Under the pieces are notes generated by a model. That model did no database searches, was not told where the DNA came from, and worked only from the letters and a program-made list of their open reading frames with translations. From Luteitalea pratensis (GTDB lineage: Bacteria > Acidobacteriota > Vicinamibacteria > Vicinamibacterales > Vicinamibacteraceae), in the NCBI RefSeq assembly GCF_001618865.1, contig NZ_CP015136.1, forward strand, positions 5,057,001-5,121,000: 64,000 nucleotides of DNA, read 5' to 3'. Numbering within the stretch: the stretch's first letter is position 1; each line of letters starts with the position of its first letter. Positions 56,785 through 62,683 of the stretch are shown one piece after another. The translations under genes were made by a program, and so were the position numbers.

Positions 56785-56788
<4 letters not shown>
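56072..56788 (-). CDS. cutC: CutC-family copper homeostasis protein
   Basis: 238 residues from a GTG at 56788 overlapping the stop of the YyaL gene (GTGA). TIM-barrel with the family blocks [33 protein letters not shown] (IRPR) and [18 protein letters not shown], plus [15 protein letters not shown]. CutC was linked to copper tolerance, but the biochemical function is unsettled. Shorter N-terminus than the open frame suggests. Confidence 0.88.
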
Positions 56789-58932
<2,144 letters not shown>

Positions 58933-59138
58933 CGGGCCATCTTAGCCCTGATGCAAGGTCGGGGTGCCCTCGTCCGGTGCCGTTTCTCTGAGTATTCTCG
59001 CGAATTCAACGCCCTTCACCGACACCTGTGACCCGATCGGTGACGGCGCGACCCTCAAAGCCACGGGCTCGGCGCCGGCTGCCACGCGATCCCACACGGC
59101 CTCGGCGTGCGCGCGCGTGTCCGCGCTCTCAGCGCGGA

Positions 59139-61622
59139 CTAGCCGGGTTGTCGAGGAGCGGGTGTCGAGAGTCCCGCGAAATGCTCCAGGAGCAGGCGGT
59201 GGACGAAGATGAAACCGCCTCCCACCTGACGCAGGAATACCAGCCTCACCCCCTGTCTCAGTGATCCGATGAGCCTCCGCGGCGTGCGTTCGGAGATGAC
59301 GAGCATCAGCCGCAAGACGTAGTGGAGGACGATGTCCGCTCCCCCGAACACCGCACACCCCAGTGCTCCCGGGATGTAGGCGAGGCCCACCCACATGCCC
59401 GGCTTCGCAAAATCGGAACCGAAGGTCAAGGCGAGCACCACGCCGACACATCCGGCAAAGACGAGCGCCGCCCGGAGCATGGTCCGCCGAATCCCCTGAT
59501 TGGGCGAGAACGTCTTGAGCGCCCGTGGCTGCACACCCCCGAGGCCGAATCCGGCCAACCAGCCCACCGCCACGACTGTGGCGTAACCCCTCCAACCCGA
59601 AGCGGCAGCCAGCCCGGACAACGCGTTTTCGACCAGGAGCATCAGGCCGAGGGCGACCACGACGCCGCCCCAACTGCGCTTCAAGGCGGATCGCCTCGAC
59701 CATCCCACGCTTTCGAACGTCTCGATTTCCTTGGTCAGAGGGAGCCGAGCCTTCAAGGCGAGCACGATACTGAGCGGCGCGATGATCAAGATGCTCCCAA
59801 GGGCAGACAAAAGAACCTGATCGAGCGAGAACGAGACGTCGGACGGCGACGGGGAAATCGTCTGAAGGCCCACATGGACGACGACGCCGACGACCAGACC
59901 GCTGGCGATCCAGATGCCGATCGGTCGCAGCCATCCGAGCGTGCGAGACAAGCCCGTGCCAGCCATGACGAGCTCGAAGAGACTCACGGCCAACGCCTGC
60001 GACAGGGCCGCCCACGCCGCGAAGCGGATCGACCCCTCGGAAAAATACAGGCCCCAGGCGCCGGTCAACGCGAGCGCGAGCGCGGTCCGGCCGGTCACGA
60101 CGTAGGCGGCAAGCGCCCAGCGTTTCGTGAGCCACGACGGCTGCATCTGCTCCACCAGGTACTCAGTGACGCCCTGGCCCCGCATCGCGCGCGCCAGCCA
60201 GGCAAGGAAGGCGATCGTCTGCGGTCTGGTCCCGAGCCCCTCCCGGACGCCCTTGCGGGCAAACATCGTCTGGATGTACCGGTCGAACAGAGCGTGGCGT
60301 CTCTTCTCGGGTGTGGTGTCCGCGGACGCCGACGGCGCCTCGGGCGACGCGTCGGCATAGGCCAGCGCCATCACGTTCAGCAGCAGCGGCGACGTGGCCA
60401 GCGAGCGAAGCGACTCGTCGTTGTCGAGCGCCGATGCAAGACCTGCGAAGCGAGGTCCGATCTGCATGAGGTAGGACTGGATTTGCGCCGCCTCGAGCGG
60501 TCGAAGCCGGATCGCCCCCCAGGCCTTGATCCGGTCGGGTAGCGCCACGTATTCGGCGACGCGGCTGCAGACCACCAGGCCGGGCGCACCATGGCTCTCC
60601 ACATACGCGTTGATGGCGCGAACGCAGTCAGCACGTCGCGACTCGTTCACTTCGTCGAGCCCGTCGAGCAGCAGGAGCAGGCGTCCCTCCGTCAGCCAGC
60701 GGCGGCACAACTGCTTCGGGATCTGGTACCTGCCGCGAATCTCCTCGGTCAGCCAGTCGAAGAGCGGCCCGCTTCGCGAGCCGAAGGACGAGAGATTCAA
60801 GACGACCGGGGTGATGCCTTCGTGTTCAGAGGCCAGCAGGCTGCGGGCAAGGTCCAGCAGGCACGTGGTCTTGCCCGCGCCAGGCTCGCCGAGGACCAGC
60901 AACGATCGGCCCGCTTCCTCGAAGATGTCCGCAATCTTGCGGCTCCTCAACAGCTCGCGCGTGGAGTGGTCCGGCAACTCCAGCACGGTGGCCCACGGAT
61001 GGTCGATGGCCTCCGTGTTGCCCTCGATGCCGAGATCGATCAGGACTTCGTCGTACAGCGAGTGCTTGAGGACGCCGTCCACCCAGAACTGCTCGACCTT
61101 GCGGCGCAGGATCTCGAGCTGGGACTGTTCGACGTCCCGGCCCGGCGTGGCACGGCGCTGCGCCATCTCCGTTCGCTGGTCGCGGATCCGGCGCGCCTGC
61201 CAGGCCGCCAGGTCGTCCTTGACCATGGCTCCGAGCTGTGACGCGTTCTCGAACCGCCGAACCGTGACCCCGTTCTCGACGTGACCTGCCCGCGCGAGGA
61301 AGGCTTCGAGCCGCGGATCGCGGCCGTCAAGGGCGGTCCGTCGTTCGTACACCAGGCGGTCCTTTCCCAAAGTGGTCGCCAGTTCGAACTCTTCGACCGT
61401 GTACGCCCCGTACTTGTTCGCAAACAGGCCGACGTAGATATCAGCGCTGTCGAGTTCCTTGCTGAAGGTCAGCGCGGGACTCTCCGGCCGGGCGCCCGCG
61501 TCGCGCTCGAAAAGCCAGGCGTCGATCTTGAGCTCGTCGAGCGCCTGCTTGACGGCAAGACGCTCGGGTTCGAGCTCTTCCATCGAGGAACTGACGAACG
61601 CTCGGATGCGTTCGAAGATCAT
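59139..61622 (-). CDS. DUF4062-NACHT NTPase with C-terminal multi-pass membrane domain
   Basis: 827 residues. N-terminal DUF4062-like domain (about 5-90: IRAFVSSSMEELEPERLAVK; SADIYVGLFANKYG). NACHT NTPase (about 235-420) with Walker A GEPGAGKTT (245-253), Walker B RLLLLLDGLDEV (314-325) and sensor-like ATSPLLLNVMAL. From about 500 to 780 there are eight to nine hydrophobic segments, broken by a cytosolic-looking TFSPNQGIRRTML (704-716), and the end has GGGFIFVHRLLLEHFAG, a NACHT-type C-terminal motif. STAND-type NTPases act as signal-triggered switches, some in anti-phage defence. No obvious partner gene lies beside it. Confidence 0.85.
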   Translation of the reverse strand: MIFERIRAFVSSSMEELEPERLAVKQALDELKIDAWLFERDAGARPESPALTFSKELDSADIYVGLFANKYGAYTVEEFELATTLGKDRLVYERRTALDGRDPRLEAFLARAGHVENGVTVRRFENASQLGAMVKDDLAAWQARRIRDQRTEMAQRRATPGRDVEQSQLEILRRKVEQFWVDGVLKHSLYDEVLIDLGIEGNTEAIDHPWATVLELPDHSTRELLRSRKIADIFEEAGRSLLVLGEPGAGKTTCLLDLARSLLASEHEGITPVVLNLSSFGSRSGPLFDWLTEEIRGRYQIPKQLCRRWLTEGRLLLLLDGLDEVNESRRADCVRAINAYVESHGAPGLVVCSRVAEYVALPDRIKAWGAIRLRPLEAAQIQSYLMQIGPRFAGLASALDNDESLRSLATSPLLLNVMALAYADASPEAPSASADTTPEKRRHALFDRYIQTMFARKGVREGLGTRPQTIAFLAWLARAMRGQGVTEYLVEQMQPSWLTKRWALAAYVVTGRTALALALTGAWGLYFSEGSIRFAAWAALSQALAVSLFELVMAGTGLSRTLGWLRPIGIWIASGLVVGVVVHVGLQTISPSPSDVSFSLDQVLLSALGSILIIAPLSIVLALKARLPLTKEIETFESVGWSRRSALKRSWGGVVVALGLMLLVENALSGLAAASGWRGYATVVAVGWLAGFGLGGVQPRALKTFSPNQGIRRTMLRAALVFAGCVGVVLALTFGSDFAKPGMWVGLAYIPGALGCAVFGGADIVLHYVLRLMLVISERTPRRLIGSLRQGVRLVFLRQVGGGFIFVHRLLLEHFAGLSTPAPRQPG

Positions 61623-62143
61623 GGGGGACCCTGGGCCGGGCGCGATTCTAGCACCGGGTCACGGCCGACGGCGTCTGACGTTGCCTACGGAGACACACGC
61701 CATGCCTCGCTTCGCGCGCAGAATCACCTCGCCGGCGCCCGAACGCGTCAGCCACGGCGTCAACGACCGCGCGTGCACATAGACCGACGTTTCGCGTAGA
61801 CGAGCGCTTGCGTATCGGGCACGCGGTCCCTGCGCGCGGGCCAGGTACCGAGATGCGTTCGTTCCCGACTAGCAGAAGCCGCAAGAGGGGAAGCGCGATG
61901 AAGAAGAACGCGGTCGACCCAATGCGAAGGACTACCGCGGCTTCTGATTGCCAACGCGCCGGTCGGGCTCACCTGTGGTCAGTCCGTGACCTGACCTGTG
62001 ACGTTCCCGGACGCGCCGCGCCACGTCTAGCTCCCCTTGCGGGCGCGACCGACCGCCGCTTTCTTGTTTTCTGGCGTCGCTGAGGGTCGCTGGGGCCCTT
62101 TGGCCTCGAAGCCCTGATGTAATATCGGCCCAGGGAGACGCCA
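61623..62143. other. 521-bp region, no convincing gene
   Basis: Between the NACHT gene start and the DJ-1-like gene. Reading frames in both directions are Arg-rich and unlike the neighbours. On the minus strand 62027-62110 encodes a Lys/Arg-rich stretch (KGPQRPSATPENKKAAVGRA) that could be a gene end, but no start is visible. A TAATAT at 62119 could be a -10 element for the DJ-1-like gene. Confidence 0.45.
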
Positions 62144-62683
62144 GTGATCACCGATCAACGCAAGCGCGTGGCTTTGCTCGTGGAGGATGAGTTCGAGGAT
62201 GCCGACGTGGCCGGCACGAGCGACCTTCTCCGGTCGGCCGGTGTCGAGGTGGTGATCGTCGGTCCGCTCGCGGGACGTACCTATCGCGGACGCAAGTCCC
62301 TCGAGGTGGAGTCGGAACTCGCGGCCGGCAAGGCGCATGCGAAGGACTTCGATGCGGTGCTCATCCCCGGCGGCCATGCCCCCGATCGGATGCGGATGCG
62401 GCACGCCATGATCGACCTCGTCCGCGACACGCTCGCGGCGGGAAAGCCGGTGGCGGCCATCGACCGCGGCGCGCAGTTGCTGATCTCGGTGAAGGCCGTG
62501 GCGGGCCGCACGATCACGTGCTGGCCGTCCATCGCCATCGACATCAAGAACGCCGGCGGACGCTACGTGGATCGCCCCGTCGTCGAGGATGGCTGTGTGA
62601 TCACCGCCCGCAAGGCCGACGACGTTCCGCACTTCGCCGCGGCAATCCTGAAGGCGCTCGGCAACCTGCAGCCCGCCTCCTGA
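62144..62683 (+). CDS. DJ-1/PfpI-family protein lacking the nucleophilic Cys
   Basis: 179 residues from a GTG preceded by AGGGAG. The class I glutamine-amidotransferase-like fold is clear: RVALLVEDEFEDADVAGTSD, VVIVGPLAGRTYRGRKSLEV and DFDAVLIPGGHAPDRMR. The nucleophile elbow, normally A-x-C-H-G, reads AAIDRGAQLL, with Asp107 and Arg108 in place of Cys and His; the partner Glu is also Asp-shifted. Protease, deglycase or chaperone-type catalysis by Cys is therefore not expected. It is 17 bp upstream of galK. Confidence 0.87.
   Translation: MITDQRKRVALLVEDEFEDADVAGTSDLLRSAGVEVVIVGPLAGRTYRGRKSLEVESELAAGKAHAKDFDAVLIPGGHAPDRMRMRHAMIDLVRDTLAAGKPVAAIDRGAQLLISVKAVAGRTITCWPSIAIDIKNAGGRYVDRPVVEDGCVITARKADDVPHFAAAILKALGNLQPAS

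Follow-up and report, generated by a model that had tools for sequence, protein, structure and literature searches.

A DUF4062-NACHT protein of Luteitalea pratensis with a predicted membrane insert in its NLR-like switch and interchangeable N-termini among its relatives

The gene treated here lies in a stretch of 64,000 nucleotides of the Luteitalea pratensis genome (the window; bases 5057001-5121000 of a single contig of 7,480,314 bases), where an open reading frame (ORF) at 59139..61622 on the reverse strand, with an ATG start and an intact frame, encodes a protein of 827 amino acids (P0001). ORF call, Pfam, an AlphaFold2 model and structural alignment together delineate a DUF4062 domain, a helical linker and a NACHT ATPase made up of nucleotide-binding domain (NBD), helical domain 1 (HD1) and winged-helix domain (WHD), with an eight-helix membrane insert preceding the wing. 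A preliminary description, made from the letters alone, had announced a single ORF joining DUF4062, NACHT and several transmembrane segments and had taken it for a STAND switch with a membrane part; the ORF call, the Pfam matches and the model helices confirm the first claim, and the NACHT fold with its eight-helix insert supports the second. We lean towards regarding P0001 as an NLR-like protein that is anchored in the membrane and headed by a TIR-like NADase domain, for which we infer both the NADase activity and a probable role in abortive defence.

Pfam DUF4062 (PF13271) matches residues 7-74 of P0001 (E = 1.5e-11; 44.8 bits, cut-off 24.7), and the whole DUF4062 or TIR-like domain, a predicted NADase, extends over residues 5-125 (61248..61610, −). 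In the accessible part of a 2026 preprint DUF4062 is assigned to a TIR-like NADase family near the NDT superfamily; the KpSwz protein of Klebsiella is reported there to protect against phages by NAD+ depletion, for which E97 is required, DUF4062 being the NADase executioner of abortive infection (PMC13174449). According to the same text the DUF4062 domain of TEP1, which adjoins a NACHT, is an active NADase, and activation of DUF4062 by NACHT oligomerisation is put forward as speculation. A three-row profile of P0001 and its DUF4062-NACHT relatives from Nitrospira (L080) and Lacunisphaera (L040) matched the solved KpSwz chain (PDB 10wc) with E = 3e-9. In the profile alignment E78 of P0001 (codon 61389..61391, −) stands opposite an alanine at KpSwz chain position 84, which we take as E97A: position 84 is residue 97 with an inferred offset of 13 (from the 15-C construct), and the solved protein is the mutant with alanine. 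Glutamate occupies the E78 position in 12/12 DUF4062 sequences picked from earlier hits. The same profile matched TEP1 with E = 0.0099 in an alignment that stops at residue 72, short of E78. Residues 3-142 are also similar in fold to DNPH1 (VIA-align, Z = 15.0), which agrees with the preprint's placing of DUF4062 near the NDT superfamily. Because DUF4062 is a NADase family and the catalytic glutamate of KpSwz corresponds to E78, the N-terminus is the likely executioner. DUF4062 as the sensor of the protein was considered and dropped, since the domain belongs to an enzyme family with the catalytic glutamate kept and since the membrane core is common to many heads (see below). The same genome holds a second, weak DUF4062-like match (30%, E = 2.1e-6) at G000:C1:1049155-1049571 (−), in an open frame of 2552 amino acids (L002).

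Relatives were collected by scanning 84,980 genomes (one per species) with a five-row alignment, and at least 292 stretches encode one; the family counts given here refer to the best 80. Eleven of these 80 (truncated, frameshifted or of odd length or start, L109 among them) were left out of the alignment and the tree, both of which have 70 rows. With this alignment AlphaFold2 gave a model of P0001 with a pLDDT of 82.3 and a pTM of 0.73. The single-sequence model (pLDDT 39.6) was discarded.

Next to the DUF4062 domain comes a helical linker (residues 126-205; 61008..61247, −) recognised from alignment and model, which carries the family signature FWxxGVLxxSL with W180 and L185 invariant in the 70 rows. 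Pfam NACHT matches residues 240-338 (E = 2.2e-6; 28.1 bits, cut-off 26.7), and NBD plus HD1 can be placed with approximate boundaries at residues 206-465 (60228..61007, −) from Pfam, the invariant positions and VIA alignment to NLRC4 and NLRP3. The motifs are a Walker A GEPGAGKT at residues 245-252, a Walker B LLLLLDGLDE ending at E324, the Sensor-1 residue R354, and P412. Residues 466-500 (60123..60227, −), with a boundary inferred from the model, form the last cytoplasmic helices preceding the membrane insert and are either the first part of the WHD or the HD1-WHD junction. On the far side of the insert the wing follows (residues 777-817; 59172..59294, −), placed by the invariants, the model and the structural alignment; in the model the C-terminal winged helix consists of a helix at 784-793, strands at 797-800 and 803-806 and a helix at 809-817. 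VIA-align superimposed residues 161-827 on NLRC4 93-465 with Z = 25.6 over 338 aligned residues, and residues 166-823 on NLRP3 134-538 with Z of about 22; the best Foldseek match was NOD2 (1.1e-7, TM-score 0.28 on the query). P0001 thus shows the traits of bNACHT/NLR proteins, namely Walker A and B, Sensor 1 and the NBD-HD1-WHD fold, as seen from Pfam, the NLRC4 alignment and the invariants. Sequence searches with P0001 alone (PADLOC, NCBIfam and PDB) returned weak, mostly P-loop matches.

The wing carries an FxHxxxxExxA motif. In NLR proteins FxHxxxQEhxA is the conserved WHD motif, whose histidine (H438 in APAF-1, H443 in NLRC4) coordinates the nucleotide, and NLRC4 H443L is constitutively active (PMC7583971, accessible part). 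The P0001 motif F806-V-H808-R-L-L-L812-E813-H814-F-A816 has F, H, E and A in register, with L812 in place of Q and H814 in the hydrophobic position; F806, H808, E813 and A816 are each present in at least 90% of the 70 rows. H808 is the predicted nucleotide-sensing histidine. The preliminary description had assigned the terminal FIFVHRLLLEHFA motif to the membrane region, which model and alignment show to be wrong: the motif belongs to the ATPase switch, because it is located in the winged helix and matches the nucleotide-sensing motif of the WHD.

A C-terminal sensor domain after the WHD is absent from P0001, which ends 10 residues past the wing. The same holds for the family, in that the protein end lies at most 30 amino acids from the terminal motif in 66 of the 73 motif-bearing proteins (P0001 included); the motif pattern was unmatched in 8/81 proteins, six of them judged incomplete or frameshifted and the other two (L052 and L070) being visible variants. 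Tails past the winged helix were seen in some relatives. In L052 and L077 the C-terminal ~190 amino acids contain TPR repeats and, after them, a ClpS-like domain, which may connect these proteins to Clp proteolysis, and short-N-terminus cyanobacterial members have zinc-ribbon-like tails, by weak Pfam matches in L090 and L114 and by eye in L097, L106, L108 and L115.

The membrane insert comprises residues 501-776 (59295..60122, −), where the alignment-based model has eight hydrophobic helices; invariants and lysine/arginine counts helped to assign the loops, and a cytoplasmic position is predicted for those rich in lysine and arginine, among them the PNQGI loop (707-711) and the one that contains I633. 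Loops 557-565, 625-642 and 696-708 are predicted to lie inside, and loops 590-599 and 668-675 outside. On the model, then, eight membrane helices appear to be spliced into the NLR switch before the wing, either within the WHD or at the HD1-WHD junction. The loop counts of lysine and arginine agree with eight crossings and two cytoplasmic ends, and in 63 of 70 rows these residues prevail in the predicted inside loops (sum 438 vs 123); the seven rows without a shown excess include L080, which is cut near a contig end, so that its membrane part is unseen and no residues are present there. The modelled eight crossings with both ends in the cytoplasm fit the switch, because an even number is needed for its two halves to lie on the same, cytoplasmic side. 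Between helices 1 and 4 the median spacing in the family is about 55 residues shorter than in P0001; this points to two missing helices in many relatives, a step that would keep the number even. Of all parts of the core the helices vary most. Within the insert, nearly invariant columns fall in predicted inside loops (I633, P707, N708 and G710), in helix 1 (Y507) and towards the inner end of helix 8 (H767, L770, R771 and L774).

Since the usual place of an NLR sensor, past the terminal motif, is empty in 66/73 proteins, the membrane insert is a natural candidate for the sensor. Two relatives have unusual inserts. In L064 the cytoplasmic loop EIKTVESLKWSSQEFKKSIKQ occurs twice, resembling a duplicated module of loop plus helices. 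A kinase-NACHT-membrane relative from Polyangia (L109:8651-13312, +) has a soluble stretch of about 430 amino acids between the helices corresponding to 5 and 6, in a predicted outside loop; the stretch looks propeller-like by eye alone, and neither Pfam nor the PDB sequence search gave a match. In this one case the stretch could be an envelope sensor.

Most relatives are cyanobacterial by name (60 of the best 80), and the remaining 20 come from Chloroflexi, Bacteroidetes, Methylococcales, Verrucomicrobia, Gemmatimonadetes, Desulfamplus, Nitrospira, Polyangia and others. N-termini long enough for a Pfam scan are present in 54/80 (26 were short and left out), and 45 of the 54 carry one of eight kinds of head: Pkinase (19), TIR (7), CHAT (5), guanylate cyclase (5), AAA_35 (5), DUF4062 (2), caspase (1) and trypsin (1). 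The other nine carry none of the eight kinds, some having weak matches elsewhere, and one kinase-headed relative also contains TCAD9. On a quick maximum-likelihood tree of the soluble core, which has long branches, the nine head labels (including 'none or unknown') need at least 21 changes (least possible 8; mean of shuffled labels 39.1), and 16 changes when unlabelled rows are excluded. The three DUF4062 rows need 2 changes and may nonetheless have a single origin. From these comparisons, heads were exchanged repeatedly on a core whose NACHT, membrane insert and wing remained joined.

The preliminary description had proposed that DUF4062 senses, that NACHT oligomerises and that the C-terminal helices open or disrupt the membrane. 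In its favour, the model has eight hydrophobic helices, and multi-transmembrane domains in variable C-terminal regions of bacterial TRADD-N-type system proteins have been proposed as possible pores (PMC8195603, accessible part). The same core, however, also bears kinase, TIR, CHAT, cyclase, caspase and trypsin N-termini, and the membrane region is therefore unlikely to be the effector: eight kinds of head would be redundant for a pore and useful for a sensor-switch, which argues for the membrane part as a shared switch or sensor platform rather than a toxin. DUF4062, moreover, is an enzyme family whose catalytic glutamate is kept in P0001, and the strongest conservation in the insert falls mostly in predicted inside loops or close to the inner end of helix 8, the helices being the part of the core that varies most. 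We therefore found the membrane-disrupting output unsupported and consider it quite improbable.

The gene stands alone, flanked by housekeeping genes that were identified by ORF call and a Pfam scan of the window ORFs. On one side lies a DUF255/thioredoxin-like gene (56785-58932, −), and on the other, beyond an upstream gap that is indeed 521 bp long as first described (61623-62143), a DJ-1/PfpI gene (62144-62683, +). The two neighbours are 3,211 bp apart in the window. In the four of four same-genus genomes searched (G317, G362, G396 and G397) the site is empty and the neighbours are adjacent, with matches about 51-107 bp apart; on the G397 contig only residues 1-159 of the DUF255 protein are present. 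The neighbours are adjacent also in four further genomes of the order (G400, G088, G403 and G014), and a fifth (G041) has merely a weak DJ-1 match (32%) on a different contig. In BLAST of the flanks, the two ends of the insertion align to one shared segment of the empty site, which is 35 bp long in G362 and in G317 and 7 bp long in G396; in G397 the end matches do not overlap. Repeat comparison then revealed an imperfect 19-bp direct repeat at the insertion boundary (left copy 58944..58962, +; right copy 62110..62128, +), the two copies being 84% identical and the repeat being single in the empty site of the same-genus genomes. No mobility gene was recognised between the repeats in a scan that left small ORFs there outside, and the DNA from 58900 to 62200 had no match among plasmids.

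Among 193 genomes of the class this genome alone has a full-length match. The 396 genomes of the phylum contain one other near-full-length match to the core (G152), in which a kinase replaces DUF4062, and partial core matches in G197 (residues 159-517) and G238 (residues 706-824, in an open frame of 169 amino acids). A plasmid search found 27 records, 26 of them cyanobacterial by name, and 0/27 cover 80% of the query. Because it is inserted at an empty site and is patchily present in class and phylum, the gene is accessory and, most simply, horizontally acquired.

Neighbours of the relatives were surveyed within 6 kb (proteins of up to 1,200 amino acids) for 17 of the 20 non-cyanobacterial relatives, with 106 of 110 ORFs included and four dropped for length; 20 of the 106 were scanned singly to place matches at loci. 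PADLOC (E ≤ 1e-15, 25 of 53 families listed) gave ZorA (2), ZorB (1), type I methyltransferase (2), PDC-S03 (2), mad3 (5) and kinase models. A Methylococcales relative of the TIR-NACHT-membrane type has a ZorA match upstream (L042:5888-6790, +), a viperin (pVip)-like match adjoins L049, and mad3 or LmuB matches, read as generic, adjoin L040 and L065. On a Nostoc plasmid a trypco2-family gene stands directly upstream of a CHAT-NACHT-membrane protein (L035:1125-4755, +).

Several results weigh against an abortive-defence NADase. Defence neighbours are few across the 17 relatives, and in the window itself PADLOC (E ≤ 1e-10; P0001 and 43 other called ORFs; 25 of 37 matched families listed) revealed no convincing one: the matches listed are to generic models (PD-T4-6 and C3a189 kinases, RtcR/sigma-54, mad6 and MkoA), as expected from the early remark that known defence neighbours are lacking. 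A phage collection contained no relative, and the core query found two weak NACHT relatives (25-26%) among the matches listed from viral contigs. With P0001 alone as phmmer query against the PDB, KpSwz was not recovered at E ≤ 1, so that its detection requires the profile, and the DUF4062 part of the model is weaker, with pLDDT blocks of 48-92. Among the four human DUF4062-NACHT proteins only TEP1 is active, NWD1, NWD2 and NPHP3 not hydrolysing NAD+ (PMC13174449, accessible part); a DUF4062 domain beside a NACHT can therefore be inactive. Among the viral contigs the DUF4062 query found no relative, and another search found one DUF4062 relative (L134).

The inactive human domains bear on a further explanation, in which P0001 is a decayed or inactive copy, an inserted gene whose DUF4062 no longer acts. 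That it is a single copy without a partner would agree with this. The frame of 827 amino acids is intact, as are the Walker motifs, H808 and E78, and we rate decay as very improbable. A membrane-bound NLR of signalling or stress response, without antiviral function, would relay the state of the membrane or envelope to an N-terminal output (a NAD-derived signal here, a kinase or cyclase elsewhere). Kinases as the commonest N-terminus (19/54), the cyclases (5/54), the cyanobacterial origin of 60/80 kept loci and the scarcity of defence neighbours are in keeping with such a function; the full-length match in 1/193 genomes of the class and the position of the gene inside an insertion speak against it, as do the TIR, CHAT, caspase, trypsin and DUF4062 outputs, which are typical of cell-suicide systems. 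On balance it seems rather unlikely. Defence is favoured mainly because of the effector families and the accessory status of the gene. The part of the preliminary description that suggested a defence role thus remains plausible from the insertion, the patchy presence and an effector family with shown antiphage activity, and is weakened by the few defence neighbours.

For the abortive-defence reading of P0001, in which the membrane is probably the place of sensing, we propose the following mechanism. In the resting state H808, the winged-helix histidine, would keep the NACHT ATPase closed with ADP bound, and the eight helices would anchor the winged-helix part in the inner membrane. The trigger would be a change in the membrane, such as phage entry, a lysis protein, depolarisation or a membrane-bound phage product, which would shift the helices and hence the winged helix and so allow nucleotide exchange and oligomerisation. 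Oligomerisation would gather the N-terminal DUF4062 TIR-like domains, which would hydrolyse NAD+ and stop the infected cell. The computation supports the architecture, the membrane insert in the NLR switch, the catalytic glutamate, the interchangeable N-termini and the genomic insertion on which this scheme draws.

Tentatively, we go one step further and suggest that the family forms a new NLR class. Its regulatory winged helix would be built into an integral-membrane bundle, the ADP/ATP switch would thereby read the state of the membrane directly, with no separate sensor domain, and this membrane switch would be reused across bacteria with at least eight interchangeable heads, among them the DUF4062 NADase known from the vault protein TEP1. 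The insert in the winged helix would give a direct and mutable link from membrane state to NLR switch, and the modular core with eight kinds of N-terminus forms a swap system: should sensing reside in the membrane core, a different N-terminus would be expected to keep the trigger and alter the output. DUF4062-NACHT being the arrangement of human TEP1, NWD1/2 and NPHP3, a bacterial single-gene version would make NACHT-driven activation testable in E. coli.

As to kind, P0001 is a NACHT/NLR protein with a putative DUF4062 effector; in the literature searched, leaving subscription papers aside and with sources accessible in part, we found no account of a NACHT whose winged helix is interrupted by membrane segments. 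With NLRC4, NLRP3 and NOD2 it shares the fold and order NBD-HD1-WHD and the nucleotide-sensing histidine motif of the WHD. Animal NLRs have a soluble switch and C-terminal leucine-rich repeats, whereas P0001 ends at the winged helix and has its switch interrupted by membrane helices. In TEP1, NWD1, NWD2 and NPHP3 DUF4062 likewise adjoins NACHT, but these have an APAF-1-like helical domain and several have WD40 repeats, a membrane insert being unmentioned in the accessible part of the preprint (PMC13174449). Swarozyc (KpSwz; PDB 10wc, 11cq and 11cv) resembles P0001 in the DUF4062 TIR-like domain and in the glutamate at the catalytic place; the small helix-turn-helix or winged auxiliary domain with which KpSwz binds the phage portal (PMC13174449, accessible part) has no counterpart in P0001, which past residue 160 is a NACHT-WHD ATPase with membrane insert. 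The bNACHT proteins (bNACHT25 of clade 6; SNaCT of clade 14) and EruA are, like the proposed P0001 system, bacterial NACHT antiphage proteins; bNACHT25 differs by its own N-terminal DNase and NCH1 domain (PMC12169576, accessible part), and EruA (NCBIfam NF058535) matches residues 307-425 weakly (30.8 bits, cut-off 1000). The ternary/STAND conflict systems of multicellular bacteria (Kaur et al., 2020, 2021) differ in that P0001 is a single gene, and the word DUF4062 is missing from the accessible parts of the main texts; they are alike in placing interchangeable effectors on STAND NTPases (accessible parts), and the present family touches them through the TCAD9 domain in L046 and the trypco2 gene beside L035.

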